Shown here in pieces: positions 68 through 22,045 of a stretch of DNA of 64,000 nt. Position numbers and translations under genes: made by a program. The stretch covers positions 24,916 to 88,915 of the forward strand of contig CAISEZ010000045.1 in the NCBI GenBank assembly GCA_903884535.1. The letters are read 5' to 3'. Within the stretch, counting starts at the first letter, position 1. The number at the start of each line of letters is the position of its first letter. The DNA is from an uncultured Verrucomicrobia subdivision 3 bacterium (GTDB taxonomy: Bacteria > Verrucomicrobiota > Verrucomicrobiia > Limisphaerales > UBA11358). The notes below the pieces were generated by a model. That model was not told the origin of the DNA. It worked only from the letters and a program-made list of their open reading frames with translations, and did no database searches.

Positions 68-1507
68 TCAATCTCCTTTTTCGCCGAGGGAACGTTTGTC
101 GGTGCGATTGGTGAACGTGCCGTCGAAATAATCCACCAGCGAATAGACGTGTTCGTTCAGCGATTTCATTTCGGCGAGCAGCGGCGCGTAAGGCTCGTAA
201 CGGTTGTTGACGATGCCCTTGTTCGAATCGCGGTTGGAAGGATCAACAGTTTTGTCGTCCAAGTCGTTGTCCGAATATCTGAACCAATGCCAGCCGACGC
301 AGACTTTGGATTCGAGCAGGCCGAGGGTGAAATTCTGATAAAACTGCCCGCGTTCGCGCTGGGTCTTGACCAGCCAGCCGGCGCCGCCGTTGTTGGGCAT
401 GCCGGAATCAATGCCTTTGGCATACCACTCGGTGATGAGCACCGGTTTCTGCGCTTGGTGCGACCACATCGCGACCTGGCTGTCGGGCGTCCAGACGCGA
501 TAATAGTTCACGGAGACGACATCCAAAAACGGCCCGATTGCCTTGAAAAATTCCGGGCAACGCAACAGTTCCATGCCATGCAGGCGCGGTCCGAGATAGA
601 GATGGTTGGGATCGTATTTTTTGATGGCACTGGAAACGATCCGGAAATAGCGCTGCGCCACGAGCGTGAGAAATTCGCTCTTGTCCCGTTCGGTGATGTC
701 TGCGGTAGCCGCCTTGGCACCATGCCGCGATTGCAAAAAATCCCACGCTGCCTTGTGGCCCGGATCGCCCGCTGGCAACGCGAGGTAATTGGTGAGCAGG
801 CCGGGCTTGAACGGCAGTTCGTTGTCGGAGAAATGGCCGAGCAACCACGGATCGTCTTTGTCGGCGGCAAGCTGCTTGGCGTAATCGTCGCAAAAAATTT
901 CAAAAGCCGGATCGAAAACAAAAATGCAGTCGTTCGGGTATCCCGTGTGGCCGGGTTGCTGGTAGGTGCCGCCGCGTTTTTTTCCATAGCTGCTCATGAA
1001 ATTCCAAATGGTGGTATAGACCAGCGGCTTGGCCACCGCCCGTAGCGGAGTCGTGTCGGACCACGCGCCGACAGCGTTGAAACCGTTTCGTCTGAGCAAG
1101 GTCGTTGTGCCCGCCGCCCAATTTGATTCGCTGCCAAACTTCGCCGCCAGCGCCGCGCGCGCCCCGGGCGTGGGAATCATCTTCACCCCGGCCACGCCGA
1201 CGTTGAGGCACAAACAACCATCGGGATCCACTAGCCACCAGCGGTCGCCGACTTTGGCGGTGTGAAAAAATCCGGTGGCCTTTTCTTTGCGTGCCAGCAG
1301 CCCGCCATATTGGCTCAAGTCGGCATCTGCCGGAGCCGCCGCGACCGCCGGCAAATCGTCCAGCGTGCGCGTAGAAAATGTTTTCCACTCCGCACCGGGC
1401 TTGGTCGCCACCGGCACCATCCGCGGTGCCGTCGAAGCCGGCACGGCATCGGAAATACCGAGCAGGATGACCGCCAAAGCGAGATTGAATCCAGTTTTCA
1501 AATTCAT
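68..1507 (-). CDS. secreted glycoside hydrolase, beta-agarase-like TIM-barrel
   Basis: 479 aa ORF, signal peptide, WWLVDPDG..., LLGHFSDNELPF, LITEWYAKG motifs typical of agarase-like GH proteins. Confidence 0.75.
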   Translation of the reverse strand: MNLKTGFNLALAVILLGISDAVPASTAPRMVPVATKPGAEWKTFSTRTLDDLPAVAAAPADADLSQYGGLLARKEKATGFFHTAKVGDRWWLVDPDGCLCLNVGVAGVKMIPTPGARAALAAKFGSESNWAAGTTTLLRRNGFNAVGAWSDTTPLRAVAKPLVYTTIWNFMSSYGKKRGGTYQQPGHTGYPNDCIFVFDPAFEIFCDDYAKQLAADKDDPWLLGHFSDNELPFKPGLLTNYLALPAGDPGHKAAWDFLQSRHGAKAATADITERDKSEFLTLVAQRYFRIVSSAIKKYDPNHLYLGPRLHGMELLRCPEFFKAIGPFLDVVSVNYYRVWTPDSQVAMWSHQAQKPVLITEWYAKGIDSGMPNNGGAGWLVKTQRERGQFYQNFTLGLLESKVCVGWHWFRYSDNDLDDKTVDPSNRDSNKGIVNNRYEPYAPLLAEMKSLNEHVYSLVDYFDGTFTNRTDKRSLGEKGD

Positions 1508-1545: not shown

Positions 1546-1561
1546 CAGAACATTCGTTCTG
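1546..1561. promoter_or_regulatory. inverted-repeat operator candidate CAGAACATTCGTTCTG
   Basis: Near-perfect palindrome 38 bp upstream of the GH start; same motif at 8086, 11836, 16878. Confidence 0.6.
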
Positions 1562-2633: not shown

Positions 2634-4778
2634 TCAGGGCGAACGGATCATGTAAAACTCCAACGGCTCGTTGGTCGGCGCTTGAGCGTCAATAAATTGA
2701 TATTGTCCGGCCAGGATTTCAGTCACCGGGCCGAGCACCTGCCAACTGGTTCGGGGCAGGGCCGGGTTGGTTGTCCCCAACATTTCAAAACTGGCTCCCG
2801 GCGTATTGGTGAACGTGCATTGAAAATTTCCGTTGGAGTTTATCAGCGAGGAATTAATCATCGGCGTTGTGATCGACGTCGTGCTGACCGTAAAATCACT
2901 GGTATTGGTGCCACCCACACTATTGGTCACCAGCGCCTGAAAATGATAGGTCGTAGCTGGCAGCAAACCGCTGATCAGATTGGTCACCGCAACCGAATTG
3001 GTCCCAGCCTGAATCACATTGGTGCCGGAAAAGTTGCCGTAGCCAGTGGATGTGCCGAAAGCATAATAACACTGGGCAATGGCCCCGCCGGGATTCACGG
3101 TCCCCACCAGCGCAATGCTATTCGGAAGGCGGGTGCTGGAACCAGATTGCAGGGCATAGGTCGGTGGCGAATTGCTGCTAACCGGAGTGACCCATTCAGC
3201 CGCGCCGCGGTCTGGCTGACCGACGTTGGGCACCAGATTGCCGAAGAAATCCAAGCCGCCAGCATTGGTATTGCCAGTCATGGCCGTGGTAACCAACAAA
3301 CCAGAATCAATGCATGGCGACCCGGCCTGGAGCAGGTAGCCGCCCAAGGTGCTCATGTTGGTGGTGCCGCCCACGCCGCCGCCGGTGCCGGGGGCAACCA
3401 GCAGCGGATTGCTGGTTAACTTATTGGCGTCGGATGGTTCACCAGAAACATGCTGACCATAAAACAAGTTGTAATTAAATGTTCGCGTATTGCCGCTGGT
3501 AAAGTTCCAACTGGCAGTGCTGCTCAAATTATAGAACACATTATTATAAACATAATAACTATGACCTGTGGCCCGGTCGTCAAAAAAGACCGGCGAAAGA
3601 TTGGACGGTGTATAAATGGTGTTGTTGTAAATGTAATCACTGGCGGTGGTGCCCCCGTCTCCGCTCAGTCCGAAGATGTCGCCTTGGTCATTCTGGCTAA
3701 TGTTGTAACGGACGACAATGTGCGTATCGTTACCAACCGCATTGCCGGCGGTGTCCGCCGAGGCGTATTGGACAAATAATCCCCAACTGTTGTCGTGGCT
3801 GTAACTGAATTGCCAGACAGTCTGGGGACTCCGTAAATCTGCATCATAGAGGCTTCCATCATGCAGGCCGTCACCGTTGTTGTGATAACCCTCGTTATAC
3901 TGGAAGACTGCACCGCGCGAACTATAGCTGCAGATTTGATTGCCGTCTGTAGTGTTAGCAGTGTCATGCATCAAATTGTGCTCGACTACGCATGATGCGT
4001 CCGCGTAGCGGATACTCATGGCGTTTTTGCAAATGTCGCTGATGACATTATTGCGGATATGCAAATTGGAACAGTAATGAGTATTCCAGGCGGACGTGCC
4101 GGGGTAATCGCTCGTGGAACTCCGGTTGGCACAGGCGACAATACCTTGATTCGTCACTGATAGGATTGTGCAGTTCTGAATGGTAATATCGTTGAAACGA
4201 GTTGCGGTGCCGGACTCGCTGGTGACCTCGACCACAATGCCGCCGGTGCGCTTGGCTACCAAGTCGCCATTGGAGGTGTCCACGCGGCCGCAAATATTAT
4301 GAACAAAGCAATTGCTGACATAAAGGTGGTTTACCACGCCAAAGTTGGCCGCCGCCAGATGAATGCCGCGACGCTCGGTGGAGGTGCCGGAACCGGGATT
4401 AATCACTTCCAGATTGCTGATTTCCCAATACTGCTGATTATTAAGTAGCACTGCATCAGTCGCGCCATTGCCGTTGATGAGTGGCCGGGAGGAATTCGTT
4501 CCGTAGGAACTCAATTTGATGGGATTGCCACTCGTGCCCGATCCCAACGGGCTTAACGTGCCTGTCCAACTGCTGCCATTCTTCAGCAAGAGAAAATCTC
4601 CCGGGGCGAAGGTCGTCCCGTTAATCTTGGCCAGACTAGACCATGCCGCGTTGGATGACGTGCCGCTGTTGGCGTCATTGCCGGCCACGGAATCGACATA
4701 ATAAGTCGACGCCATTGCCGGCAGCACGGTCATGGCGATGATCAACCGCGCAAACCAAGCAAACATATTGTTCACCAT
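2634..4778 (-). CDS. secreted right-handed parallel beta-helix protein with FN3-like and C-terminal FYMIRSP module
   Basis: ASTYYVDSVAGNDANSGTS start, beta-helix rungs (NCFVHNI.., NNVISDI..), C-terminal STN..W..FY module. Confidence 0.8.
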   Translation of the reverse strand: MVNNMFAWFARLIIAMTVLPAMASTYYVDSVAGNDANSGTSSNAAWSSLAKINGTTFAPGDFLLLKNGSSWTGTLSPLGSGTSGNPIKLSSYGTNSSRPLINGNGATDAVLLNNQQYWEISNLEVINPGSGTSTERRGIHLAAANFGVVNHLYVSNCFVHNICGRVDTSNGDLVAKRTGGIVVEVTSESGTATRFNDITIQNCTILSVTNQGIVACANRSSTSDYPGTSAWNTHYCSNLHIRNNVISDICKNAMSIRYADASCVVEHNLMHDTANTTDGNQICSYSSRGAVFQYNEGYHNNGDGLHDGSLYDADLRSPQTVWQFSYSHDNSWGLFVQYASADTAGNAVGNDTHIVVRYNISQNDQGDIFGLSGDGGTTASDYIYNNTIYTPSNLSPVFFDDRATGHSYYVYNNVFYNLSSTASWNFTSGNTRTFNYNLFYGQHVSGEPSDANKLTSNPLLVAPGTGGGVGGTTNMSTLGGYLLQAGSPCIDSGLLVTTAMTGNTNAGGLDFFGNLVPNVGQPDRGAAEWVTPVSSNSPPTYALQSGSSTRLPNSIALVGTVNPGGAIAQCYYAFGTSTGYGNFSGTNVIQAGTNSVAVTNLISGLLPATTYHFQALVTNSVGGTNTSDFTVSTTSITTPMINSSLINSNGNFQCTFTNTPGASFEMLGTTNPALPRTSWQVLGPVTEILAGQYQFIDAQAPTNEPLEFYMIRSP

Positions 4779-4873: not shown

Positions 4874-7237
4874 TCAGAACGGAAAACTCACGCTCGGGGC
4901 AGTGCCGGTTTCTTTGATCTGATAGAACTCGGTCTGACCGGTTTGGCCAGTGATTGCGGCGGAGTAATTGCCACCGCCAAGATCCGTGATGGTCACACCC
5001 GAAGCGACTTGCGAGTAGGTTCCGTTAACCAAGGCGGAACTCCAAACTTGCTGATTGGCCGACTGCCCGGCTCCGGCTGTGTCGGTATAGCTGATGGTGA
5101 CCGTGTTTCCAGACTTGATGATACCAGTAATGGTTGGGAACGGTTTGTTGACAACTTTCACCGCTGCGCTCTGAATGAGAATGTTGCCCATGCCAGCATT
5201 CTGTCGCAAGACCAGATAATTGACATTTGCAAGATTGGTCACAGCCACGTCTTGAAGTGTAACTCTCGTGCCAGTGGAGCTACTTTGGTTAATCCAAAGT
5301 GTGCTGACGCCAGAATCAACATCATAGCTTACAACGATATTGTCAGGCGTTGAGTTGGGGATCACTCCGCTCGTATTGTAGTTGGGTATCGTCTCCGAGT
5401 ATGAGGTGTTGATGCTAGGACTATTCGTGCCGTTATACAAGGCCAGATAGAATAGTCCGTCGTTGGTGGTCGTGTTGGCAGCGTTGGTGATTGTGCATAC
5501 TTGAGCCATCGCCACGCCGGTTGAGGAACCATCCGCTGCAAACTCCACAAATCCACCGGTGGAATTGCCAGGATATGCGGCGTTCGCTCCATACAGTGAT
5601 ACGTCAGCCCACGTGGCAAGGACACTGGCATAAAGCACTTTATGACTACCAGCGGTATAGGGCGCGCCGGCGAGTCGCATCTGATTTTGGTTGCCGCTCG
5701 CCGTGCCGCGGATCAATGGAACACCGACCGGAACGACTCCGCCACTGGAAGGTGTCAGCGTTGTGATCAAATTCACCGATCCGCTCACAGTGCGTGAAGC
5801 CCAAATTCCGCCGGAAACGTTCACCAAGTCAGAATGCCCGCTGCTCGAGGAATATGAAGTAGAAGGTTGGTAATGCATCATATCGCATAGCGCATAACTA
5901 CTGTCAGGCAAAACCATCACGGCCAGTTTCAATGTGTTTGTGAGAGCGTTGGCAGGATCGATTACATTCAAGGTGACGATGCCAACTCCGCTACCTATCG
6001 CGTTAATGGTGATGGTGCAATTATTCGTGTTGGGCGCGATGCCGGTGGTTGAAGTGAAGGAAAGACTGCTTAAATTTGTGGTCAGTGGATTGCCATTTCC
6101 ATCCAAGGCCACCACCGCGCCGGTGACCACCAAGCTTGATGCCGCAACATTTGTGTCAACGATTTGGAATGGAATCGTGATGGCACCAGCCCCGATCCGG
6201 TTAGTAGGCGGAATATAGTTGACATTGGTTCCGCTGAGAACATACGGCAATGAGATGAATGGTGGGACTGTCAGTTGGAACGATGATGACGCACTATTTC
6301 CCGAGCTATCAGTGACGCTCACTGTGACGGTGACCGAAGCCGTGGTTCCTGGCGCAAGATTATTAAGCGGTGTAAATGAAAGTGTGCGAGTGCCACCCGA
6401 GCCGGCAACAATGTTGGAGGTAGTCAGGGTGACATTGGTATTTCCCAACGAGATTGTGATATTGGTCAATGTGGCGGCCGGATCCAGTGGATCGCCCACC
6501 GTGAACGGAATTAATCCGGAACTCACGGTCGATTTCACGGTCAGGTTGCCAAACGCTGTAATTGTCGGCGGCAACGTTCCTGGTGTCAACGGTTGAAAGG
6601 TCGCGGCAGGCGGTGTGACGGTGCTGGCCATAGCAAATCGGGCTCCGTTGGCCGTGGTTCCCGTTGAAACGTCATTGGTGGCGGTCAAAACCAATACCAC
6701 TTGATTATTGATGAGATATTGTCCCCACGGTGGAGGCACTGTGACTCCCGAGCTACCGGTGCCGCCGTTGTCAATGAAGTCGGTCACCAAACTAGCCGTG
6801 TTGGGGCCCGTGGTTAGCAGATCGTTGGCCGTAGAAACCGTGTTGTTGGCTTGCGCGGAGGACCAGATCAGGCTTGGATTATTGGTCGTGAAACTAGGAT
6901 AGGCCTGGTTCAAGGCCCAAACCAGCACATGGGTGTAGCCATTGTTGGCGTTTGCCGATGGCAGGCTGATCTTCAAGCCGTAATTGGTGTTGGGATTCTG
7001 GCCGGTGAAATCAAACTTGAAATAACTTTTGCACGGTGTGGTTGCGCTGTATTTGACTTTGTCATAACCCGATACATAATTGGTAAATCCGGTGCCAGCG
7101 GTGGCTGAATATTGGATGGTCGAGTCCGTGATTGCATTGGTGACGACGGTGGCATTTTGAGCAGATGCTGCCACGGTGCCGGCAGCCAAGGCTAGACCTG
7201 TGAATGAAACGACCCGGCGGAATAGTGTGATTTTCAT
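4874..7237 (-). CDS. secreted DNRLRE/CBM-like plus Ig-like domain protein
   Basis: CKSYFKFDFTGQNPNTNYGLKISLP...LVWALNQAYPS resembles DNRLRE-type module; matches a module in the 17183-22045 protein. Confidence 0.7.
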   Translation of the reverse strand: MKITLFRRVVSFTGLALAAGTVAASAQNATVVTNAITDSTIQYSATAGTGFTNYVSGYDKVKYSATTPCKSYFKFDFTGQNPNTNYGLKISLPSANANNGYTHVLVWALNQAYPSFTTNNPSLIWSSAQANNTVSTANDLLTTGPNTASLVTDFIDNGGTGSSGVTVPPPWGQYLINNQVVLVLTATNDVSTGTTANGARFAMASTVTPPAATFQPLTPGTLPPTITAFGNLTVKSTVSSGLIPFTVGDPLDPAATLTNITISLGNTNVTLTTSNIVAGSGGTRTLSFTPLNNLAPGTTASVTVTVSVTDSSGNSASSSFQLTVPPFISLPYVLSGTNVNYIPPTNRIGAGAITIPFQIVDTNVAASSLVVTGAVVALDGNGNPLTTNLSSLSFTSTTGIAPNTNNCTITINAIGSGVGIVTLNVIDPANALTNTLKLAVMVLPDSSYALCDMMHYQPSTSYSSSSGHSDLVNVSGGIWASRTVSGSVNLITTLTPSSGGVVPVGVPLIRGTASGNQNQMRLAGAPYTAGSHKVLYASVLATWADVSLYGANAAYPGNSTGGFVEFAADGSSTGVAMAQVCTITNAANTTTNDGLFYLALYNGTNSPSINTSYSETIPNYNTSGVIPNSTPDNIVVSYDVDSGVSTLWINQSSSTGTRVTLQDVAVTNLANVNYLVLRQNAGMGNILIQSAAVKVVNKPFPTITGIIKSGNTVTISYTDTAGAGQSANQQVWSSALVNGTYSQVASGVTITDLGGGNYSAAITGQTGQTEFYQIKETGTAPSVSFPF

Positions 7238-7270: not shown

Positions 7271-8050
7271 TTAGAATTGTTTGTTGGTCGGGACACTTTT
7301 CGCCCCCGCGTGACCATCGAAATAGATGTGGTTTCGCAAGGTTCCATGGATGGGTTTGGGCGGCGTATTGGCCGACCAGGATGGTGTCTTGGTCGGATTG
7401 GAAGTGAACCCCTGTTGATCCAGATCCACCATAGCCCAGATTTCTGTCAGCGGCCCGACCGCACTGATGGCGTTCAATTTCAATGACGGTGCCGTGGAGG
7501 ATGAGCCAATGTAAGAACCGAATGGATTTTTCATCAATTGAGTGGCATTGGTCTCGGCAAACTCCCAATTATACATGCCATAATACTGGCGGTGCCAGAT
7601 TTCGGTGGTCACCCCGGCAACCGCGGGTGGAGTGTAGCCGGAAACCGCGCCCGGACAGGTCATCACATTGATGATGTTGGTTTGGAGCGAAGGGGCAGGA
7701 AGTTGCAGGTAACTGTAGATATAATTCGGCAAGACACCACCAAGGTCGGTCAAAAATGTGCCATACCCGCCATACTGACCGAACAGCAATCCCCAATTCG
7801 GATTGCCCGGCGGCAACCGGTCGCTGTTATCGTTGTTATACATTTGCAGAGCCAGTCCGTTTTGTTTGAAATTGCTCAGGCAGGAAATCTGTTGCGCTTT
7901 TTGTTTTGCCTTGGCCAGTGCCGGCAGCAGCATGGCGGCCAGAATGGCGATGATGGCGATCACCACCAGAAGTTCAATCAGGGTGAAGGCGTTGCGCGGG
8001 CGCGAGCAAAGGGGATTGTCACTGGTTGAAATGAGAGATCGTGAATTCAT
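7271..8050 (-). CDS. prepilin-type N-terminal cleavage/methylation protein (pseudopilin)
   Basis: [45 protein letters not shown] hallmark. Confidence 0.93.
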
Positions 8051-8085: not shown

Positions 8086-8101
8086 CAGAACATTTGTTCT
8101 G
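8086..8101. promoter_or_regulatory. inverted-repeat operator candidate CAGAACATTTGTTCTG
   Basis: Near-perfect palindrome 35 bp upstream of pseudopilin start. Confidence 0.65.
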
Positions 8102-8124
8102 TATGCCTCTTGACGGTGGCAGGC

Positions 8125-8763
8125 CTATTTCCGGCCGAGGAATTTGATGATCGCCTCGGAACGGGACTGAACATGCAACTTTTCATAAACCAGATGCACA
8201 TGGCCACGCACGGTGTGCAGGCTGATGTGTAATTGATCGGCGATTTCCTTGTAAAGAAATCCCTTGGCAAGCAGCGAAAGAATTTCGAGTTCGCGCGGCG
8301 TCAACAGCTCGAATTCCGCCTCCGGTTTTTTGATTTCCTGAAAATGGCTGACGACTTTCCGGGCAATCTGCATGGACATCGGCGAGCCGCCGGCTTGAAC
8401 CTGTTCCACCGCCTGAATGATCTCGTCCGGATCGGTGTTCTTCATCAGGTAGCCGCTCGCGCCAGCCCGCAGGGATTCAAAAATGAGATCGCTGTTCTCG
8501 TAGGCCGTGAGCATGAGAATCTGGGTCTTGGGCAGGAGCGGCTTTAATTGCGCCGCACATTGCACGCCGCTGATGCCCGGCAGATTGATGTCCATCAGCA
8601 CCACGTCCGGGGCGGTGGCGGGCAGGTCGCGCACCGCCTCTTCGCCGTTGGCAAAGGCGCCCACGCATTTTAAGCCCGGGCTGCGCTTTACCAGCTCCAC
8701 GAGGTTTTCCCGCGTCCCGCGGACATCTTCAACTATGGCAATGGTAATGGCTGTTTTTTTCAT
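8125..8763 (-). CDS. NarL/FixJ-family response regulator
   Basis: Receiver domain ([12 protein letters not shown]...[11 protein letters not shown]...K) and LuxR HTH ([43 protein letters not shown]). Confidence 0.95.
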
Positions 8764-8804
8764 GGAGCAATGGGAACTGGACGAGTCTTAGCAGAATGGC
8801 TGCA

Positions 8805-11780
8805 TCAGGGCAATTTAAGTTCCACGCGAACGGTGGTTCCGGTTCCCGGCAAGCTCTCGATGGTGCACCGACCGCCGAGATCGGCCACGCGCTGCTGCAT
8901 GTTCCGTAATCCATCCGCATGGCTGTTGGGTGTGGTGGACGAAAACCCCCGGCCATTATCAATCAATGCCAGGCGCAATAGATTTTCGTCCAGCCGGGCG
9001 ACCATGGATATTTCCGTCGCGCCGGAATGTTTCACCGCGTTAGTCAATGCTTCCTTGATCACCATAAACAATCCGTGCCGGATATCGGCGGGCAATTCGC
9101 GGGCGGAAATTTTCTCCGGATAATCAATCCGGCAGCGGATGCCGGCCGGATTCAAAAAGTCCACGGCATATTGTCCGGCGTAATCCAGCAACTGGCTCAA
9201 GGTGTCATTGCGCGGGGTTACTGCCCAGACGATTTCATCCACGGACTTCACGCCCTCGCGGGCCAAACTGGTCATTTTTTCCACGTGCGCGATCGCTTTG
9301 GCCGGCTCGGCCAAGTCATGCTGGGTTAATTTTCCGAGCAGCGAAATCTGCGTGAGGCTGGCGCCCAACTCATCGTGCAGATCCTTGGCGATGCGTGCCC
9401 GTTCCTTCTGCATGAACGTTTCCTGCTCCAGTTTTTTCAGGCGTGCCCGGAATCGGCGGTAGGCGATGTATCGCACGGTGATGGTCACCAAGGTGAGGAG
9501 CAGCAACAATCCGGACAACCGGAACCAAACCGTCTGCCAAATAAACGGATTGACCGTGAAAGCTAGCGTTGCCCCGGTTTCATTCCACATGCCCGCACTG
9601 TTGCAGGCGATCACTTGGAAAACATAATCTCCGGCCGGCAGCCGCGTGAAGTTGGCGCTGCGCTGCGCTCGCGGCACGTTGACCCAGTTGTCGTCCCACC
9701 CTATCAACCGATATCGGAAGGCAATGTTTTCCGGCGCGATGAAACTCAACGCGGTGAATTCGATCTCAATTTTCCGGTGACCGGGCGGCAGGATCGCCCC
9801 GGCGCCATGCCGTAACCCGATCGGTTGGCTATCCACCAATATCCGTTCGATGGTCACCGGTGGCACGAGATGGTTGGGGGTGAATTGGTTGGGATTGATC
9901 ACCACGAGCCCCGACCGGGTGGGAAACCAGATGCGGCCGTCGGTGCTACGCGTGTTGCCCGGCGCAAAGCCATAGTTGCCTTGCAGGTTGGGCAGGGATT
10001 CATCGCGACCGTAAAGCACGGAACGCACGTTTTCTAATTTACCATCAAGCGCGTCTGCCAACTCTTGTTGGCGAACCTGAAAAATGCCGTGGTCGGAACT
10101 GAACCAAAAACCGCCACCGTCGTCGGTGGTCATGGCGCAAATGTAGGCGTCGTGCAGGCCGCGACTGGTGCTCAGGCTGGAAAATTTCCCATTGTGAATC
10201 CGGCCGACGCCCGCGCCGGCATAGCCAATCCATAAATCCCCTTTCGGATCGGTGTAAAGACAGCGGATAGGTTTGGCGCGGAACAAGGTTCCTGGCGTCG
10301 CGTCAACCAATTGTCCGTGGTCCACCCGGAGCAAAAAACCATCCACCGTTCCCAGCCAGATGGTTCCGGCTTTGTCCTGGGCGATGGCGCGCACCGTGCG
10401 CGTGCCGGTGGGCGGAGTTAGCGTTTGAAAATGACCGTCGTGATAGCATTGAACCAGGCTGGGCGATTCCATGGCGATCCATAAATTCCCCTCCCGATCG
10501 TTCAGCAAGCCGCGGATATTGCCGCTGCCCAACCCGTCACCGCTGCCCAGCACGGTGACTTGGCCGTCCCGCCAATGCCGCAAACCGCCACGCGCGGTGC
10601 CCACCCAGATGCCATCCGCGCCATCGCTGGTCACGCACGTCGCCCGCGTCCCCGCCCAACCGCTTTCGCCGGAAACATTCCGCCAACTGCCGTTATCGCG
10701 CCGCGCCAGTTCACCGTTTTGCGCCGCTGCCCACAAGGTGCCGCTGGCGTCCTCGCACATCGATCGCACACTGGAAAACGGCAAGCCGCTTTCGGTGCTC
10801 TGCAATTCCATGATGCGCCGGCTTAACCGATTTAGACCGCCCCCGCCGGTGCCCGCCCAGAGATTGCCTTCCCGATCCTCCGTAATGTTTAGCGTATCCG
10901 GATAAGATGTCGGCACGCTGGAAACATTGGTGCCAACGATGCGAAATAATCCGCCCACCAAGGTGCCCAGCCAAACGGTTCCCGAGTGATCCTCATAAAT
11001 CGCCGACGGGGCAATGCCTGACAGAGTGGAGTTGATCGTCGCCACCGTTTCGGGAGCTTTGCCTTCCTCCACTTTCAGCAGTTGGGTGCCGACGTTGACC
11101 CAGATGCCTCCGGACCGCGCCGGAGCCAGCCGCACCGTGCCGTTCGGCAGATCGGCGACATAACTAAAATCATAATTCCGAAACAGACTCAACTGCCCCG
11201 CCTTCGCCAGCCAAATCTGGCCTTGGTTATCACTGGTCAGCACGCACGGGCCAATTCCAGAAAGACCGGACCGCGCCGTGAACTTGGTGACTTTCCCGGA
11301 ATCAATCCGGCAGGCGGATCCATCCGCATAACCGATCCAAACTGCGCCGTCACGCGCTTGGGCCAGGGCGAGCGGGCGGAAATTGGGCAACCCATTGGCG
11401 GTGGTGAAAACATTCGTGCGGCTCGCGGTCAGTGACATAACCGTGCCGCCCTCCAGCGCCAACCACAGTTCGTCGTTGCGGCCTAGCATCATCAAGCGGA
11501 TGAGCGGCCGCGTGCGTTGCGACGGGGTTGGTAACTCAATTTCCCGAAACCGGACGCCATCAAACAGGGCTAACCCACCCTGCGTCGCCACCCAGAGATA
11601 GCCTTCGGCATTCTGGGCGATACTGGTTACGTCATTGTCCGGCAGGCCGTCGTCGGTTTGCCAGGAACGCACAAACCAGGGCGACGAATCGGCCGCCGGA
11701 ATCATGCCGGGAAGGAACAGTGCAAGAACCAGATTCCAACGCACGACCAGAAGCCAGAGGGCGGTGTGGCGGGAAATCAT
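8805..11780 (-). CDS. sensor histidine kinase with N-terminal two-component-regulator propeller (HisKA_3 type)
   Basis: Repeated W.gt..GL.r propeller blades, Y_Y_Y-like FRYRLIGWDDNWV, ERARIAKDLHDELGASLTQI H-box. Confidence 0.93.
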   Translation of the reverse strand: MISRHTALWLLVVRWNLVLALFLPGMIPAADSSPWFVRSWQTDDGLPDNDVTSIAQNAEGYLWVATQGGLALFDGVRFREIELPTPSQRTRPLIRLMMLGRNDELWLALEGGTVMSLTASRTNVFTTANGLPNFRPLALAQARDGAVWIGYADGSACRIDSGKVTKFTARSGLSGIGPCVLTSDNQGQIWLAKAGQLSLFRNYDFSYVADLPNGTVRLAPARSGGIWVNVGTQLLKVEEGKAPETVATINSTLSGIAPSAIYEDHSGTVWLGTLVGGLFRIVGTNVSSVPTSYPDTLNITEDREGNLWAGTGGGGLNRLSRRIMELQSTESGLPFSSVRSMCEDASGTLWAAAQNGELARRDNGSWRNVSGESGWAGTRATCVTSDGADGIWVGTARGGLRHWRDGQVTVLGSGDGLGSGNIRGLLNDREGNLWIAMESPSLVQCYHDGHFQTLTPPTGTRTVRAIAQDKAGTIWLGTVDGFLLRVDHGQLVDATPGTLFRAKPIRCLYTDPKGDLWIGYAGAGVGRIHNGKFSSLSTSRGLHDAYICAMTTDDGGGFWFSSDHGIFQVRQQELADALDGKLENVRSVLYGRDESLPNLQGNYGFAPGNTRSTDGRIWFPTRSGLVVINPNQFTPNHLVPPVTIERILVDSQPIGLRHGAGAILPPGHRKIEIEFTALSFIAPENIAFRYRLIGWDDNWVNVPRAQRSANFTRLPAGDYVFQVIACNSAGMWNETGATLAFTVNPFIWQTVWFRLSGLLLLLTLVTITVRYIAYRRFRARLKKLEQETFMQKERARIAKDLHDELGASLTQISLLGKLTQHDLAEPAKAIAHVEKMTSLAREGVKSVDEIVWAVTPRNDTLSQLLDYAGQYAVDFLNPAGIRCRIDYPEKISARELPADIRHGLFMVIKEALTNAVKHSGATEISMVARLDENLLRLALIDNGRGFSSTTPNSHADGLRNMQQRVADLGGRCTIESLPGTGTTVRVELKLP

Positions 11781-11835
11781 GGCGTGAAATTATACCGTCA
11801 AATAAATGATTCAAGTTTTGTTTTGCCACTCTGCA

Positions 11836-11851
11836 CGGAACATTTGTTGGG
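11836..11851. promoter_or_regulatory. degenerate copy of the operator candidate (CGGAACATTTGTTGGG)
   Basis: 11-base identity GGAACATTTGT.. to the 8086 site; 55 bp upstream of the kinase start. Confidence 0.5.
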
Positions 11852-13101
11852 GTAAGAAATAATGATCTGAGCGTGGTTTTGCTTAAAAATTGTCGGTCGA
11901 CAGGGGAGCGCGGCCAGGTTGTGAAGGCGCTTACGAAATTGGTTGGCATAACAGTTGCTAGACGTCGAAAGGGCCATAAATTTGTCCGGGCTGGGTCAGA
12001 TTCGCTCATCAAACCTCGTGTTAACAGATGAATGTCAGGCAGGCGGCGACACTGTAAAAACAGGATTATTTGACTGCAGTCGTCCACTCAGCTTGAAATT
12101 TTAGCCGTCATGAATTATTAGTTTTAGAATTTTTAAATATGAGATTTTCAGTAGCAAAACGGGACAGCGACTCCGGTGGTTGCCAGTTTTCGCAAATCTG
12201 CTGGCTGCTGACGTGGTTTTGCTTCGGCGTGCTAGTCAATCAGCCGATTCAGGCTGCGCCCTTGATGGAAGAAGGGTTTAATTATCCCCTTGGCAGTGGT
12301 CTGGCGACGAATGCCCCGTGGTCCGGCAGCAACGGTTTATCGGTGGGCGTGGTGAGCGGCAATCTGACCGTCACCAATTTGCGTGGCACGGTGCCGACCG
12401 GAAATATGTTGCAGATCAGCGGGGGCACCAACCGCACAGTCTATCGGAATTTCAGCAACACAGCGGTAACTGGCGGCGCGGTCTATTGCTCGGCGCTGAT
12501 CCGCTGTCTGCAGCCACCCACCAATTCCCAATTCATCGCGAGTTTGTTGCCGGCGGGAGGAAAATCTCACAGTTCTGGCTCCGACCCGATTGCGTTGAGT
12601 GTCAATCCTGCCGGGAATGGCTTCACCTATAGCCTGACCAGCGTAGGCGGCGATTCAACGAGCGGTGGTGGGACGATGGCGACAAACACCACGCATCTTA
12701 TCGTCCTGAAATATGCCTTTGTTTCCCGAGGTGTGGCCACCCTGTATGTGGATCCGACACCCGGTGGAGCGGAGCCGGCCTCTCCAGCAATTACTGCTGA
12801 CACTGGCGATAATGTCGCTGCCAACCTGCAAGTTCTGTTACTTCAATCCGCCGCCAGCACCGCTCAAGGGACTTTTAACCTGGACTCTATTCGCGTGGGC
12901 ACCAACTGGGCTGACGTGACTCCGATGACTATTCCCTTGTCCGTGACCGGACCGCAGAATCAGGCAGTGTGTTTTGGCAGCAGCGCCAGCTTCAGTGTTC
13001 AGGCTGCCGGCACGCCACCGTTCAGCTATCTCTGGCGCACTAACGGCATTGGCGTGGTCAAAGCCACCAACAGCGTCTTCACACTGAATAATCCCAGCGG
13101 C

Positions 13102-14514
13102 CTAGCAGCCCGTTAAAGAATGTCGGTTTTTCCAAAAACTGCGGATGGAATGAATACCACGAACTGCCATAACCGTTACCAGGAAAAGCATCCCTGGAGC
13201 CAACAACCAGTGGAGTTGCCAATCCGTTTTACGGCGAGTCATGACGGCTATCAGCGTCCATACCGCCCAAAGTGTCAAAAACAAGCCCGCCGTCCCCGTT
13301 TTCGCGCTCCGCGGCTTGCACATTCCCCAAACTTTCCGCAGCAGCAGCCCCAAGTTATAGGCTGCGCACTTCAGCGTATGGGCTTTACTCACGTTGGTCT
13401 GACCACGCAACCAACTCCGCCGACCGCCGCCAGTCTCGCAGACATGGGCAAACGTTCGTTCGCAACGTTCGCTACGCCAGCGATTCAACTGTCGGCCCTT
13501 GTTCCCACGCACGCGCCGACGATTGGCCCGGAAGGCCGCTTCATATTCAGCGGGCTTGTTGGTCCAACGCCGGGTCTTTTGCCGCCGTTCAGGAATATAG
13601 GTTCGCACATCACGTTCCGCCAATTCCGCCAGCCAGCCATTGTCGTGATAACCCTTGTCCATCACCACTTCGGCAATTTCCGTTTCGCTGCCCGCCAGCA
13701 CCATATTTGCTTCCGCCAGACTCAACGTGGCCGGCGCGCTCTGGGGATCGGATTTATCCGCGAAGGTGACCGTCGTCGCCACAATCGCTTCGCTCACCAC
13801 GTCCACGGCATGTTCGGCCTTATACGCCAAATGCGTGCGCCCGTCCTTCAGCTTGGCAATCCGGCTGTCGGGATCGCTGGGGCTTTCCCATTGTTCATTC
13901 GAAACTTTCTTGTCCTTGCGGCCGCGATCCAACCGCCGCAGGTCGACCTCGGTCGGACTTTCAATGCCTGCCGCTTTGGCCAAGCCCTGCAAGTATTGTT
14001 TCCAGTCTTCCCCGCTGTCTTTGCGCACGATGCTTTTCATCGCCGCATTGGCCTCCAGCGTGGTTGCGTCAATCGCCACCGCCTTGCCGCGCAACAGTCC
14101 TTTCTGTTCCAGCATGCTCAATACAAAGACAAATACTTTATCGTAGACCGACTCGGGCAGACGCTGGCGGATCATGGTCATCGAAACATGCACGGGCGTT
14201 GCCTCCGTAATTGCAAAACCCAAAAAAGTCCGCAGGGCCAGACTGTCGGCGCAGCGCCAGGCGATGCCACGCTGGCTTTCCAAGCCTTCGAAGTAACCGA
14301 TCAACAACATACGAAAGTAAACTCCCGGAGGAATACCTGGGCGGCCGCCTTCCTTGTAATAAGGGGTACAAAGATCTTCGACAAACCCGTCAAAACCAGC
14401 GGTCGCCAGAACCTCATTGAGCTTGGCATAGAATGGATGGCCCGGACCAGTGGCCAACTCAGCCCGGGGGATGAACAGTTCGTCCTGTTTGGGTTTGCGC
14501 TTTCCAAGTGCCAT
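13102..14514 (-). CDS. IS1182-like DDE transposase with C-terminal hydrophobic extension
   Basis: 470 aa; RPGIPPGVYFRMLLIGYFEGL.., VAIDATTLEANA, DKGYHDN, ERTFAHVCETGG. Confidence 0.92.
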   Translation of the reverse strand: MALGKRKPKQDELFIPRAELATGPGHPFYAKLNEVLATAGFDGFVEDLCTPYYKEGGRPGIPPGVYFRMLLIGYFEGLESQRGIAWRCADSLALRTFLGFAITEATPVHVSMTMIRQRLPESVYDKVFVFVLSMLEQKGLLRGKAVAIDATTLEANAAMKSIVRKDSGEDWKQYLQGLAKAAGIESPTEVDLRRLDRGRKDKKVSNEQWESPSDPDSRIAKLKDGRTHLAYKAEHAVDVVSEAIVATTVTFADKSDPQSAPATLSLAEANMVLAGSETEIAEVVMDKGYHDNGWLAELAERDVRTYIPERRQKTRRWTNKPAEYEAAFRANRRRVRGNKGRQLNRWRSERCERTFAHVCETGGGRRSWLRGQTNVSKAHTLKCAAYNLGLLLRKVWGMCKPRSAKTGTAGLFLTLWAVWTLIAVMTRRKTDWQLHWLLAPGMLFLVTVMAVRGIHSIRSFWKNRHSLTGC

Positions 14515-14576
14515 GCGCTTTCAGACCATTTTCCGAGTCAGTCGGTAACAGTTTTTCTGACTTTTTTAACGGGCTG
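13106..14576 (-). mobile_element. insertion sequence, IS1182-like, 1471 bp
   Basis: Terminal inverted repeats CAGCCCGTTAAA.../...TTTAACGGGCTG, flanked by CTAG direct repeats (13102-13105, 14577-14580), DDE transposase inside. Confidence 0.92.
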
Positions 14577-16877
14577 CTAGATGCGTTAAAAAATTATGAT
14601 GTGGTCGTCAACGACGCCTTCGGTTCCGTCACCAGCAGCGTTGCGAATCTCACTTTCAGCACGAATGCCGCCGCCATTGTCAACCAGCCATCAAGTCAGT
14701 TGGTTCCTCCCGGCGCTTCCAGCGTGACGTTCAATGTGACAACCGCCGGAGACGCGCCGTTGAGTTTTCAGTGGCGCACGAATGGGGTCGCCATTCCCGG
14801 TGCCACGAACACCAGTTATACCGTCGCCAACCCCGGTCCCGCCGATGCGGCGAATGCGATTGATTTTGTGGTGGCCAATCCGTGCGCCACCGTCACCAGC
14901 ATGCCGCCGGTAAATGTGATTTTCCTGAATCAGTTCCTCGCCGGTTATGATGCCGGGCCGGGTTTTTTCAGCGGTGAAGACTTGATGCTGACCAATACCA
15001 GTGGTGCCAACCTCTATGTCTGGTCCTCGCCAGACCTGACTGTTCCGGTGCTCAACTGGACTTTCGAGGGACAGATGTCCGAGCAGGTGTTCAACAACAC
15101 CAGTGGCACCAGCCTTTATAGCATAAATGTCAATCCGGCCACTTCGCCGGTCTATTACTTCTTTGCCAAAACCAATGCCGGGCCTTACATGCCGAACGAG
15201 CCGATTGCCTCTGTTGCCACGGCGGACTATGTCAATTTTACTGTGGCGGATTCAATTGTTTCCATGAGTCCGTCTGGCCTGCTGGATCAGATTAACTTCC
15301 TGCCCGCTTATGACGCCGGCCCCGGATTTTTCAGCGGTGAAGATTTGACGCTGACCAATGCCAGCGGGGTCAGTTTGTTTGTCTGGTCGTCACCGGATCC
15401 ATCTATGTCGGTGACCAACTGGACTCTGGAAGGCCAAATGTCCGAACAAGTCTTTAATAACAACAGCGGCACCAGCCTTTATTCCATCAACGTGAATCCA
15501 GCCACCTCGCCAATCTATTATATTTTCGCCCAAACCAACAATGGGATATTCACAAGCAAGGAATCGGTGGTATGGCTGACGACCGTTGACTACCTCAACT
15601 TCACGGTGACGGGGACCAGTGCTCCCATCACCACCAATGGAATATTCATATTCGCCAACCCGCCCAGCATCACCCAGTCCCCTCAAAGTCAGACGTTGCT
15701 GGCCGGACAAAACGCCAGCCTTAATTTGACCGCCACTGGTGCTGGACTGGGTTACCAATGGTTTTTCAATAACAATGGTTTGGTCGGGGCCGCCGCACCG
15801 GTGCTCGGCTTGATCAATTTATCCGCCACCAACTCGGGAGCCTATTTTGTAATAGTCTCAAATTCCAGCGGGTCGGTCACGAGTAGTATCGCGACAATTA
15901 CCGTCGCTTCGCCGCCAGTCCTAAGGGCAAGCTATAACCGATCCAATGGTGTTCAGTTGACTGCAAACACTATCACCAATCTGATTTATGCCGTGCAGTC
16001 CGCCACAAATCTGGCTCAACCGGTGTGGTTAACTCTACTGACAAACAACACCGGATTGAGTGGTCTGATTAACTTCCAAACCAACTCGACGGGCAATCCG
16101 CGGCAATTTTACCGGCTGTTTTTCCCCTCGGCCTTTCCGTTGCCGCCCCAGATCATTCTGCCACCCCAGAGCCAGACGGTTTTGGCCGGCCAAAGTCGTA
16201 GCCTCAGCGTGTCTGCCAACGACACTGGGGCCAGTTACCAATGGTTTTTTAACAACAACGCCATCGCTGGTGCCACCAACCGGATATTGAGTATGGCCGG
16301 TATTTCGGCCGCCAATGTCGGAACGTATGCCGTAATCGTCACCAATGCTTTGGGTTCAATCACCAGCAGTATTGCGACACTTAACGTGGCTTCGCCGCCG
16401 ATTATTAAGTTAGTTGCCGGCCCGCTGGGAACCATTCAATTGAAAGCTAATTCCATCACCGGGCTGACGTATGTGGTGCAGATGTCAACAAACCTGTTTA
16501 ATTCTCGCTGGTTATCCATTCTGACCAACTCCACGGATGCTACCGGACTGGTGAATTTCCAAACCAATGCGGCGGCGCTAAAATCGGGCTTTTACCGGCT
16601 GTCATTTCCGTAGCTGAATTACTGGAACGCTTTGGGGTAAAATGGGTGCTTGTTCCTTGAACCATTTCCATTCCCTCCTATTGGACAATGTCAATTATTC
16701 ATAATGTAAGCGGGCACAATGAGATCAGAATGCGTAGAGGAAGTAGTGGGGCGTGGGTTTGAAGATTACAAATTATTAATCTACCACCGTCGGTGCTACT
16801 AGGGACGGCAGATATCACATCGTTGTGGATAGCATTGAAATAAATGAGGTTTCGTCGTTTGCCCCGCTAGTCGCAGG

Positions 16878-16893
16878 CAGAACGTTTGTCGGG
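16878..16893. promoter_or_regulatory. weak copy of the operator candidate (CAGAACGTTTGTCGGG)
   Basis: Matches left half-site; 85 bp upstream of ATG at 16979. Confidence 0.35.
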
Positions 16894-17182
16894 GTTGTTG
16901 GTTTCGAATAGTGATCTACTATGGCCAAAACATCCAAACACTATGCCTTCAAATCATCACGTTACTTGGCCCTCCATTATGACCCGGCTCAACTTGAGTA
17001 TGGGGTTAAAAGTTTTGTTAGTTTCCCTCGGCGGACTGGCCGGACATGTAATGGGCTAGTCTTATGTTGCCGGTGGCCCGCCCAATGATGCGATTGCGGC
17101 GACTTATTTTCCATATCATTGGACGCTCACCACCACCAAGACGTATAGCACAGCCAGTTCGGCCTGCGTTGGCGACATCTAT

Positions 17183-20100
17183 GTGCCTGATTATACCGGC
17201 AAGCCGGTTCCAGCCAATAGCACCAGTCGGCCGGCGGTGGTGGTGGTGCATGGCGGCGGCGGCACCAGCGGCAGCCGGGCCTCCACCCGTGAACAGCAGA
17301 TCAGCGAGTTTTGCGCCTCACATGGCTATGTGGCTTTCAACATAGATTATCCGTTGGGTGCGGTTTATCCTAAGAATATCCAGTCCTGGCGCACGGCGGT
17401 GCGCTATTTGCGGGCGAATGCAGCGACTTATGGCATTGATGTCAATCACATCGGCATCACGGGTGGATCCTTCGGCGGCTATTGCAGCGGTTTCATGAGC
17501 GGCATCACCAACGGTCAGCACACCCTGGAAGCAGATAGCAATGCCCAATACAATAATGCTTCCCTGGATTTGGACAGTGCAAATGAACTCTCGACCTACT
17601 CCGGAAATATTCAGTGCGCCATTGATCTTTACGGTCCCATGAATCAGGTGACTTCCGGCAATGCGGCCGGCCAATATAGCAGTCCGACCACGGCGACTCT
17701 TTACAATTCTTCACCGGTTAATTATGTCCATGTTGGGTCAGCTCCGATTTTGATTGCTCACGGCACGGCGGACACGACAGTTTCTATTTCCAACAGTTAT
17801 GACATGACTAATGCCTGCGCCAGGATTGGAGTGCCCTATCAATTTTGTGTGATTCAGGGCGCGCAGCATACGTTTTATTATTACCAGACCAGCGGTGGTT
17901 CATGGCCGCCGGGCAACTCCGCGCTCGACATGCGCCAGACTGCTTTCGACTGGTTCGATAAATGGCTACTCACGGCCAACAATCCACCGAGCATCACCGC
18001 ACAACCTGCCGATGCCACCGGCTGTCCGGGCACGCCGATGACGTTCAGCGTGGCTGCCACGGGAACCACGCCTTTCTACTACCAATGGTATGGACCCAGT
18101 GGCCTGATTTTGGGCGCGACCAGCAGCAGTTACACGATTGCCAGCCTGACGACCGGGAATGCGGGCGGTTATTCCGTGACGGTCTCCAACGCGGTCGGTG
18201 TCGCCACTAGCCGGACGGCAGCTTTGTCTGTTCCCAACTTGACGGCACCTGTTGTCACCATCCAGCCGACCAACCAGACCGCGGGATTGGGTAGCCCGGT
18301 CAGCCTTGTGTCGGTCGCGACCGGTTCCGCGCTCCAATATCAGTGGATGGAAAATAACAATGTCCTGCCCAACGCCACGAATGCCACTTACAGCATCGCC
18401 AGTGCCGGCAGCAGCGATGGGGGTGTCTATCAAGTCGCTGTTTACAATGGCTGCGGCACGGCGCTCAGTTCGAACGCCACGTTGACGGTGAATGCCCCGC
18501 CTTACATCACGGCCCAGCCTAATACCAATGACACGGTATGTAGCGGTGAAACCGCTACTTTTTTCGCGTCAGCATCAGGCGTCGGCCCGCTGGCGTATAA
18601 GTGGTTTGGCCCGTCTGCGCAGATTGTCGGTGCCCCGACGACCAATTTGCTGACCCTGACCAATCTGACGGCGGCGGATTCGGGCAGCTATTATCTGGTG
18701 GTCACCAATAGTTATGGCGCGGTCACCAGCAGCATCATTGCGTTGACGGTGAGTGTGAATACGGATGTCACGTTCTTAAACCAGCCGACCAATACGGAAG
18801 TCGCGGCGGGTGGCACGGCAACTTTCAGTTTTACCTTGACGCCTGGCACGGGCACTGGTCTCACCTATCAGTGGTTTAAGGGCGACTACGACCCGATCCC
18901 CTTTGCGGTTTCCACCACCAATGCCACGCTGGTGCTGACTAATGTGCTCGCGGCCTACGACCAGACGTTTTATCACTGCCTGGTGCAGAACAGTTGCAGC
19001 GCCGTGCAAAGTGCGGACGTCACCTTGACGGTGGATTCGGCGCCGGTCATTACCCAGCAGCCGCAGGCTCAAGCCACCGTCTCCGGCGGCAGCGCCAGTT
19101 TTGCCGTGCAAGTCAGTGGCACGGCGCCGTTGAGCTACCAATGGTCCGGGCCCAGCGGCTTGATTTCTGGGGCGACCAATCAAACCTTCACGCTTTCCAA
19201 TGTCAGCACGAACAACGCGGGCAACTATTCGGTGACCATTACGAATCAGTTTGGAACGGTGACCAGTTCCAACGCCGCCTTGACGGTTACGGCCGGTAGT
19301 TTTTATCTGGCGGAATCTTTTAATTATGCCTCCGGGCAGCAGTTGGCCAACAATTCGCCTTGGACTTCTCACAATGTGCCAAATACCACCGGCATGGCAA
19401 TTGTGAGCGGCGGTCTGACCTATCCCGGACTGGCGGATTTTTCGCCAGCCGGAAACGATTTGCAGATTACCCCCATTTCCGGCCAGACGAACAGCTACCG
19501 GCCGTTTGATAACAAGGCCACCAACGGAACGGTCTATGTTTCCATGCTGGCGGATTGTTCCGCGCCGGTCGGCAGCTCGGGATACTATACTTTTGGTTTG
19601 CTGCCGAGCAGCACGACAACTCCCGGTGGCCGCACCACGGATCCGGTGCTGTTACAGGTTAAGACCAATACCACGGGCGGATATTTGATGGCCGTCGGAA
19701 CAGCCAATGCGGCGGCGGCCGTCTATGCCACCAATATTTTGTCGCTCAATACCACCAATTTGATCGTTCTGAAATATGATATGGGCAGCAAGATTGCGAG
19801 CCTGTATTTGAATCCAGTGGTTGGCTCGCCAGAACCGGGCACCCCGTCCGCAACGGCCACTGGCACCATTGCCTTCAGTGATCTCAACTATGTGTATTTC
19901 CGCGGAGTGGCTGGCAGCGGCACCTGGACTTATGACACGATTCGCATTGCTTCGACCTGGAATAGTGTTTTGCCGCAAGGCACGCCGGCGACGACTGGGC
20001 CGTCTGTCACTCAGCAGCCCCAGCCGAAAGCCGTGACGGCCACGACCACCGCTAATTTTAGTGTCGGGGCCGCCGGCACGTCTCCGCTCTTTTATCAATG

Positions 20101-22045
20101 GCGTCGCGGTGGTGTGCCCATCAGTGGGGCCACCGGCAGCACCTATAGTCTCGCTGGCACTGCGGCGGGTGATTCCGGCAGCACATTTGATGTCGTTATC
20201 ACCAATTATTACGGTTCCATCACCAGCCAGGTTGCGACGCTGACGGTTAATACTGTCACCACGCCCACGGAATTGTTGTCCATCGAAGCCGTCAAATCCG
20301 TTTACTATGTGCAAACTAGTGCGGCCGGTCCGGTTTCGCCGGCCACGGGCGGATTCTCCTGGGCGGCGGAAGTGCAGGGGATTTTGCCGGCGCTCATCAC
20401 CAGTGCCACCGTGGGTTTTAGCGGCACGAACCAGCCGAATCCCTTTGTGGAGCCGGCCATTGACAACACGGATTTGGCGCAGAATGAGTTGTTCTTTGAT
20501 TCGAAATCCGCGCTGGATGCTGCGTTCACCAATGGCAATTATCACTACGTGATTCAATTCACCAATGGCAACACCTATACCACGGATGTGCCGCTGCCCG
20601 TCACGGATAATTATCCCAATGCGCCCACCATCATCGCCCCGGCGGCCGACTGGTCGGCTTCCGGCCGGCTGGCCTTGCATCCGGTGAGCGGCGGCTACCG
20701 GTTGACTTGGAATTCCCTCTCGGCGCCGCAGGACCAGCAAACCCTTGGCATCACCGATCCGTTTGGCAATCTTACCGAATACACGTTGCCGGGCAGTGCC
20801 ACCAATTTCCTCGTGCCCAATAGTCTGGTCCAGCCGGAGATGGATTATGATGTGGAACTCACCTTCACCCACATGAGTTATTTGAGCACCAATGGTGCGG
20901 GAACCATTCTCTACGGCTTGTTTGAATCGGACACTGATTTTTCTGTGCGGACTGATCCCGTGCAAACGAATGTGTTGGCGGCCTCCAGTTGGGCCACCGT
21001 GCGCGATGGCGCGAACTTCAATGTGGATGTGGATGAGATCGCGAGCGGTTATGTGCTGGCCAAATACAGCACCAACGGCGCTTCCGGCAAGGGTTATTTC
21101 CAGTTTGACCTGACCGGACAGATTCCCGACACCAATTCGCCCGCGACCTTCAAGTTCGTGACGGCGGCCACTTCGGGCCAGCAAAACCTCACGCTTTGGG
21201 CGTTGAACCAAGGCTATCCCAATATGAATAATCATCTCATTTGGGCCACGGCTCAGGCCAATGACACTAACTCCGAGAATATGCTGACCAGCGGTGCGTT
21301 GACTGCCACTGCCATCACCAACGTGTTTCTGTCGGGCGGGCCGGGGACAAATCAATTCACGCTGCCGGCGGCGTGGGGTCAGTTCATCCAAAACAACGCC
21401 CTGATTTTGGTGTTCACCACGACGGCGCCGGGTGCCCAGACCAACAGCAGCGCCGGTTACCGCATTGCGGTGAACAGTGCCGCCACTGTCCCCACGCTCA
21501 CTTATTCAACGATCCAGCCGCCGGTTGCCACGACGTTGGCGGCGACGGGAGTTACCGCCGGTTCGGCCACTTTGAATGGCACCGTCAATCCCAGCGGAGC
21601 CGCCACGGCCTGGTATTTTCAATATGGCACCACCACAAACTACGGCAGCGTGACCGCCACCAACAATCTGACGGCGGGCACGACCGCCGTGGGTGTCAAC
21701 AGCGGGTTGAGCGGTTTGAGCGCCGGCACGGTGTATCATTACCAATTGGTGGCCGCCAACAGTGGGGGCTCCGGTAGCGGTGGCGATGCCACCTTCAGCA
21801 CGCGCACCGTGACCGCACCGCAGTTGGTTTCGCCGCAGGTTTCGGCCAGCAATGGCGCGCAATTCTCCTTCGCGGGGACACCCGGCGCGACGTTCACCAT
21901 TTTGGGCAGCACGAATATCGCCCTGCCGCTTTCCAGTTGGACGGTCTTGGGCGTGGCCACAGAAAACCCCGCCGGCCAGTATAACTTTGCCGACCCGCAG
22001 GCGACGAATAATCTGCAGCGATTCTACCGGGTGCGGTCGCCGTAA
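17183..22045 (+). CDS. alpha/beta hydrolase (esterase) fused to Ig-like, lectin-like, DNRLRE and FN3-like domains
   Basis: VVVVHGGGG, GITGGSFGGYCSG nucleophile elbow, LIAHGTADTTVS, GAQHTF; same frame extends upstream to ATG 16979 but contains TAG at 17057-17059. Confidence 0.82.
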   Translation: MPDYTGKPVPANSTSRPAVVVVHGGGGTSGSRASTREQQISEFCASHGYVAFNIDYPLGAVYPKNIQSWRTAVRYLRANAATYGIDVNHIGITGGSFGGYCSGFMSGITNGQHTLEADSNAQYNNASLDLDSANELSTYSGNIQCAIDLYGPMNQVTSGNAAGQYSSPTTATLYNSSPVNYVHVGSAPILIAHGTADTTVSISNSYDMTNACARIGVPYQFCVIQGAQHTFYYYQTSGGSWPPGNSALDMRQTAFDWFDKWLLTANNPPSITAQPADATGCPGTPMTFSVAATGTTPFYYQWYGPSGLILGATSSSYTIASLTTGNAGGYSVTVSNAVGVATSRTAALSVPNLTAPVVTIQPTNQTAGLGSPVSLVSVATGSALQYQWMENNNVLPNATNATYSIASAGSSDGGVYQVAVYNGCGTALSSNATLTVNAPPYITAQPNTNDTVCSGETATFFASASGVGPLAYKWFGPSAQIVGAPTTNLLTLTNLTAADSGSYYLVVTNSYGAVTSSIIALTVSVNTDVTFLNQPTNTEVAAGGTATFSFTLTPGTGTGLTYQWFKGDYDPIPFAVSTTNATLVLTNVLAAYDQTFYHCLVQNSCSAVQSADVTLTVDSAPVITQQPQAQATVSGGSASFAVQVSGTAPLSYQWSGPSGLISGATNQTFTLSNVSTNNAGNYSVTITNQFGTVTSSNAALTVTAGSFYLAESFNYASGQQLANNSPWTSHNVPNTTGMAIVSGGLTYPGLADFSPAGNDLQITPISGQTNSYRPFDNKATNGTVYVSMLADCSAPVGSSGYYTFGLLPSSTTTPGGRTTDPVLLQVKTNTTGGYLMAVGTANAAAAVYATNILSLNTTNLIVLKYDMGSKIASLYLNPVVGSPEPGTPSATATGTIAFSDLNYVYFRGVAGSGTWTYDTIRIASTWNSVLPQGTPATTGPSVTQQPQPKAVTATTTANFSVGAAGTSPLFYQWRRGGVPISGATGSTYSLAGTAAGDSGSTFDVVITNYYGSITSQVATLTVNTVTTPTELLSIEAVKSVYYVQTSAAGPVSPATGGFSWAAEVQGILPALITSATVGFSGTNQPNPFVEPAIDNTDLAQNELFFDSKSALDAAFTNGNYHYVIQFTNGNTYTTDVPLPVTDNYPNAPTIIAPAADWSASGRLALHPVSGGYRLTWNSLSAPQDQQTLGITDPFGNLTEYTLPGSATNFLVPNSLVQPEMDYDVELTFTHMSYLSTNGAGTILYGLFESDTDFSVRTDPVQTNVLAASSWATVRDGANFNVDVDEIASGYVLAKYSTNGASGKGYFQFDLTGQIPDTNSPATFKFVTAATSGQQNLTLWALNQGYPNMNNHLIWATAQANDTNSENMLTSGALTATAITNVFLSGGPGTNQFTLPAAWGQFIQNNALILVFTTTAPGAQTNSSAGYRIAVNSAATVPTLTYSTIQPPVATTLAATGVTAGSATLNGTVNPSGAATAWYFQYGTTTNYGSVTATNNLTAGTTAVGVNSGLSGLSAGTVYHYQLVAANSGGSGSGGDATFSTRTVTAPQLVSPQVSASNGAQFSFAGTPGATFTILGSTNIALPLSSWTVLGVATENPAGQYNFADPQATNNLQRFYRVRSP

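Follow-up and report, generated by a model that had tools for sequence, protein, structure and literature searches.

A predicted dyad-symmetric operator whose distribution tracks a NarL-type regulator across a Verrucomicrobia genus precedes several genes predicted to be co-regulated

Our analysis supports a predicted regulon of the NarL type, with an operator defined here for the first time, in an uncultured Verrucomicrobia subdivision 3 bacterium: a dyad-symmetric element precedes several genes, which are predicted to be co-regulated, and its distribution across 49 genomes of the genus tracks that of a single regulator. The sites lie at a fixed distance before a set of scattered polysaccharide-related genes in the five genomes that carry the two-component system and occur at chance level in those that do not, and the palindrome is thus very probably the point at which the sensor-regulator pair acts on the DNA to switch these genes on. 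From sequence comparison, we consider it highly likely that the element would be the operator of the NarL/FixJ-type regulator encoded at 8125-8763, with predicted binding and activation of secreted polysaccharide-handling genes. The window is the whole 64,000-nucleotide stretch of DNA that was analysed, and G000 is the genome from which it comes; the features of the window that concern us are as follows.

68-1507, minus strand: GH50-like (beta-agarase family) glycoside hydrolase, from phmmer similarity to PDB 5t3b
1546-1561, minus strand: predicted operator site 1, gene-oriented CAGAACGAATGTTCTG, upstream of the GH50-like gene; -10-like CATAAT at 1523-1518
2634-4778, minus strand: secreted right-handed beta-helix-like protein of the pilin operon, with a partial NCBIfam LnbX match
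4874-7237, minus strand: secreted Ig-like, putative carbohydrate-binding protein of the pilin operon, with a Big_5 match
7271-8050, minus strand: pseudopilin (N_methyl; PF07963, TIGR02532), first gene of the pilin operon
8086-8101, minus strand: predicted operator site 2, CAGAACAAATGTTCTG, a perfect inverted repeat upstream of the pilin operon; -10-like GAGATT at 8062-8057
8125-8763, minus strand: NarL/FixJ-type response regulator (Response_reg and GerE, NarL-like), proposed activator
8805-11780, minus strand: two-component propeller sensor kinase (Reg_prop, Y_Y_Y, HisKA_3, HATPase_c)
11836-11851, minus strand: predicted operator site 3, gene-oriented CCCAACAAATGTTCCG, reversed relative to the gene, upstream of the kinase; -10 TATAAT at 11794-11789
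16878-16893, plus strand: predicted operator site 4, CAGAACGTTTGTCGGG, upstream of the giant esterase gene; -10-like TACTAT at 16917-16922
16943-22045, plus strand: giant esterase-Ig gene (BD-FAE and Ig domains), with an in-frame TAG at 17057-17059

The original prediction had placed a shared near-palindrome at these four sites, 35-85 bp upstream of the genes. All four are present to the base, at 38 bp from the GH start codon (1507), 35 bp from that of the pilin gene (8050), 55 bp from that of the kinase (11780) and 49 bp from the homology-supported esterase ATG (16943), and they are copies of one 16-bp element, for which the case is now stronger than first stated. The element consists of two inverted hexamers separated by a 4-bp gap, with the gene-oriented consensus CAGAAC-R(AA/TT)T-GT(TCTG/YGGG); the CAGAAC half is nearly invariant and the downstream half varies between target classes (GTTCTG or GTYGGG). 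The GTYGGG half was uncovered by comparing the kinase promoters of G000 and of its closest orthologue, in G037 (73% identity), which have CCCCRACAAAYGTTCYG in common, the reverse complement of site 4. Our initial palindromic consensus, outside whose scope this half fell, was too narrow. We also rejected the idea that sites 3 and 4 are degraded palindromes: both follow an asymmetric form that recurs, CAGAACRTTTGTYGGGG, site 3 with one mismatch and in reverse relative to its gene, site 4 without any mismatch.

The regulator has a receiver domain (PF00072) and a LuxR/GerE helix-turn-helix (PF00196), both above cutoff, and adjoins a HisKA_3-type sensor kinase (PF07730, PF02518). The 68-1507 product has no Pfam match; it matches PDB 5t3b ('Glycoside Hydrolase'), which we take to be a GH50 enzyme, over residues 28-462 (E=1e-59), and also the agarases 6xj9 and 4bq2 (phmmer). 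It fits GH50 by full-length similarity to a solved enzyme, its agarase activity being putative. What had been called a pseudopilin-CBM operon does begin with a pseudopilin, but the carbohydrate-binding module is putative, the domain match of the 4874-7237 product being to Big_5; the partial match of the 2634-4778 product is to the N-terminal part of the lacto-N-biosidase LnbX, far under cutoff. The in-frame TAG of the giant esterase gene separates the signal peptide from the mature part, at a point that homologues read through, and explains why the listed ORF begins only at GTG 17183; it may mark a pseudogene or stem from an assembly error. Elsewhere in the window, two long ORFs overlap on opposite strands (13102-14514 minus, 13120-14580 plus) and break an apparent single Ig-type protein, split into 12139-13116 and 14508-16613; 13102-14580 is possibly an inserted gene. 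An Rfam scan of positions 1-24000 found no RNA accounting for the sites, its sole hit being a 6S RNA (23744-23921, minus strand, RF00013, 62.8 bits), which sits upstream of a gene for an MgsA/RarA-type AAA+ ATPase (22256-23641).

With one mismatch allowed, the window has 28 copies of the bare GAACN4GTTC core, as many as chance would give (27.8 expected), and the core is thus no evidence on its own; a generic promoter scan was close to background. Longer patterns behave differently. AGAACATTTGTTCT with up to three mismatches occurs 10 times in the window versus 4.3 expected, a count equalled in 1 of 100 shuffles, and the only two copies of GAACATTYGTTC in the whole 3.9-Mb genome are both inside the window. 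With CAGAACATTTGTTCTG and up to three mismatches, 41 matches (27+14) were found versus 7 (5+2) for a reversed-pattern control. Outside the window, G000 has four other strong copies, at C31:8725, C31:12723, C31:20584 and C42:58301; downstream of the last of these (C42:58301-58316, L092:13302-13317) the contig ends without a clear gene.

It is the distribution across the genus that links the element to the two-component system. When all 49 genomes were scanned for CAGAACRWWTGTYSKG with zero mismatches, 18 sites fell in five genomes (7 in G000, 5 in G037, 3 in G013, 2 in G047 and a single one in the site-poor G034) and 5 in the remaining 44, all of these strays overlapping coding frames; this corresponds to about 1.0 versus 0.03 sites per Mb (binomial P = 5e-15), for a pattern refined on the same genomes as were counted. 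The CAGAACATTTGTTCTG scan, the kinase-promoter comparison and a search of 40 genomes for CCCCRACAAAYGTTCYG predate that refinement, and the last gave exact matches only in G000 (4), G037 (1) and G013 (1), all carriers of close orthologues of the system. The kinase has orthologues of 63-100% identity (63-73% in the four genomes besides G000) in exactly the five genomes with sites, the next best kinase having 50% identity, and the recognition helix SLHTVRGH(V/I)HLVYEKL is common to the five regulators and differs in the paralogues that we read. In a tree of alanyl-tRNA synthetase (AlaRS), made from 387 columns of one partial gene and leaving out G013, which gave no usable match, the four placed system genomes are dispersed, and well-supported branches require at least three label changes, so that shared ancestry alone does not explain why element and system occur together. 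The close relatives G019, G003, G005 and G028, some of them as close or closer, lack both.

Within the five genomes, the sites are kept at orthologous promoters. All five have one before the pseudopilin operon (G047 by a relaxed pattern) and before the GH50-like gene, where site 1 is retained in G037, G013, G034 and G047 (the last two by the relaxed pattern). Sites of the site 4 type precede giant esterase-Ig genes twice in G000, the second being a paralogue on C31, and in homologues in G037, G013 and G047. The four closest DUF3570 homologues each have a site (G000, G037, G013 and, with one mismatch, G047), as do two other giant Ig proteins (G000 C31, G047 C57). Homologues in genomes that lack the system have none, the best matches having 3-5 mismatches: this holds for the GH50 homologues of G044, G030, G021 and G035 (59-63% identity) and for the DUF3570 homologues of G006, G044 and G032 (52-61%). 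Both the enrichment, confined to the system genomes, and this conservation in relatives support the original prediction. We set aside relaxed-pattern matches that overlap coding frames (G037:C39, C124 and C151:74734; G047:C20 and C121; G034:C18); further matches lie at G047:C516, G013:C74 and G000:C67:40900. No site was found in the promoters of kinase paralogues of about 40-50% identity. Two propeller kinases of 48-50% identity, L107 (G030:C287) and L106 (G035:C46), have no NarL-type regulator detected alongside, and just downstream of L107 there is a GH50 gene.

The promoters also share a geometry. At 21 of 21 non-kinase sites, an nAnnnT hexamer begins 21-24 nt past the site, versus a mean of 7.0 and a maximum of 16 in 5000 trials with shuffled flanks, although this offset was spotted by inspection and tested afterwards, and orthologous promoters are not fully independent. 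The peak is sharp, with other offsets mostly giving 2-11 of 21. If the hexamer is the -10 element, the centre of the site would lie at about -42, the position of a class II activator. In both kinase promoters (G000, G037) the site is reversed and the -10-like TATAAT and TAGAGT begin at 41 nt, which would put its centre at about -61.5, a class I position.

These observations suggest the following model. The regulator, as partner of the propeller kinase, would bind as a dimer, presumably phosphorylated, and contact the two inverted hexamers, CAGAAC and either GTTCTG or the weaker GTYGGG, 4 bp apart. At its targets the downstream half-site would stand in for the -35 element, so that the dimer would recruit RNA polymerase as a class II activator and turn on the pseudopilin operon, the GH50-like agarase, the giant esterase-Ig and other giant Ig proteins and the DUF3570 protein. 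The GH50-like enzyme and the esterases suggest an acylated galactan-like polysaccharide as substrate, and the signal is probably a galactan-like oligosaccharide. The reversed site at the kinase promoter would mediate class I positive autoregulation. A local, autoregulated NarL-type regulon had been proposed; co-occurrence, conserved promoters and activator geometry argue for the regulon, but it is not purely local, since members also lie on contigs C31 and C42. Autoregulation would hold for G000 and for G037, where site 3 is kept as CCCCGACAAACGTTCTG, but the site is missing from the kinase promoters of G013 and G034 and none was found in G047, so this feature would be optional.

The element might instead serve another transcription factor, with its gene elsewhere and, by coincidence, the same distribution as the system, for example one more regulator from this set of genes. 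The link between this regulator and the element is, after all, drawn from sequence, related propeller kinase systems are numerous in each genome (5-47 candidates at first look), and in G013 the DUF3570 gene has an OmpR-type pair nearby. Such a factor would, however, need the identical patchy five-genome distribution; no OmpR pair was seen in the clusters read from other genomes, and the C165-type paralogue, which scores high only in G000, G037 and G047, differs in its recognition helix. The sites, moreover, flank the operon of the two-component system itself, and we regard another factor as unlikely. Chance, or a dispersed repeat devoid of regulatory function, would account for the behaviour of the bare core in the window but hardly for an enrichment confined to five genomes, for sites before orthologous genes or for flanks that have diverged while the -10 spacing was kept, and we give it almost no credence.

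The core is also that of the Gram-positive LexA box, GAACN4GTTC, and an SOS role had been raised as a caveat. We reject it: the LexA DNA-binding domain (PF01726) is present in G047 but was found in none of the other four system genomes by a search that was positive in 10 of 14 control genomes, and no recognisable DNA-repair gene (recA, lexA, uvr) is among the identified genes downstream of any site. As these metagenome-assembled genomes are 91-95% complete, a single absence could be a gap, but four are unlikely. The extended flanks, activator spacing and non-SOS targets likewise set the element apart from this box, and the Verrucomicrobia LexA motif is reportedly TGTTC-N4-GAACA, with the half-sites in the opposite order; a LexA box is thus extremely improbable. 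A role as the -35 promoter element of an ECF or other alternative sigma factor would be in keeping with the proximity to start codons, the almost constant spacing to a -10-like hexamer and an ECF-like gene near the C31 sites. Such a promoter would have two hexamers 16-19 nt apart in one orientation, whereas the element is dyad-symmetric and found in both orientations, and the 21-24 nt between its downstream hexamer and the -10-like hexamer, or 41 nt at the kinase promoters, where the element is reversed, are too long for a -35/-10 pair, which makes this explanation very unlikely as well.

The preferred reading, an operator of the NarL-type regulator, has a parallel in ComA of Bacillus subtilis, also of the NarL/FixJ type, whose operator is an inverted repeat of 6-4-6 layout, the first half being the stronger (PMC4797271). 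The two have in common the inverted hexamers, the 4-bp spacer, the better conserved first half and the role of activator, predicted in our case, but the half-site of ComA is TTGCGG rather than CAGAAC, ComA has an extra direct-repeat element and responds to quorum sensing, and neither its phylum nor its targets are those of the Verrucomicrobia system. The hybrid two-component systems of Bacteroides join a propeller-type sensor to an AraC-type DNA-binding domain. They are the sensors of polysaccharide utilization loci (PMC11253607) and resemble our system in their sensor and in the control, predicted for ours, of polysaccharide genes; here, in contrast, kinase and regulator are separate proteins, the DNA-binding domain is of the LuxR/NarL type and the targets are scattered. 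Our literature searches turned up no reported target or operator for the propeller kinase systems of this Verrucomicrobia group.

One of many propeller kinase systems thereby gains a concrete, predicted 16-bp operator, together with a promoter geometry and a list of genes. A GH50-like agarase is joined in one putative regulon by pseudopilins and giant esterase-Ig proteins, whose role is unknown. The recipe of comparing operator and orthologue distributions is applicable to other paralogous systems. It is possible, and we propose it only tentatively, that system and operators together constitute a regulatory unit of patchy inheritance, perhaps horizontally moving, which would have brought secreted genes unrelated to one another (pseudopilins, agarase, giant esterases, Ig proteins) into a scattered, pilin-linked polysaccharide regulon, a Verrucomicrobia counterpart of the polysaccharide utilization loci of Bacteroides.
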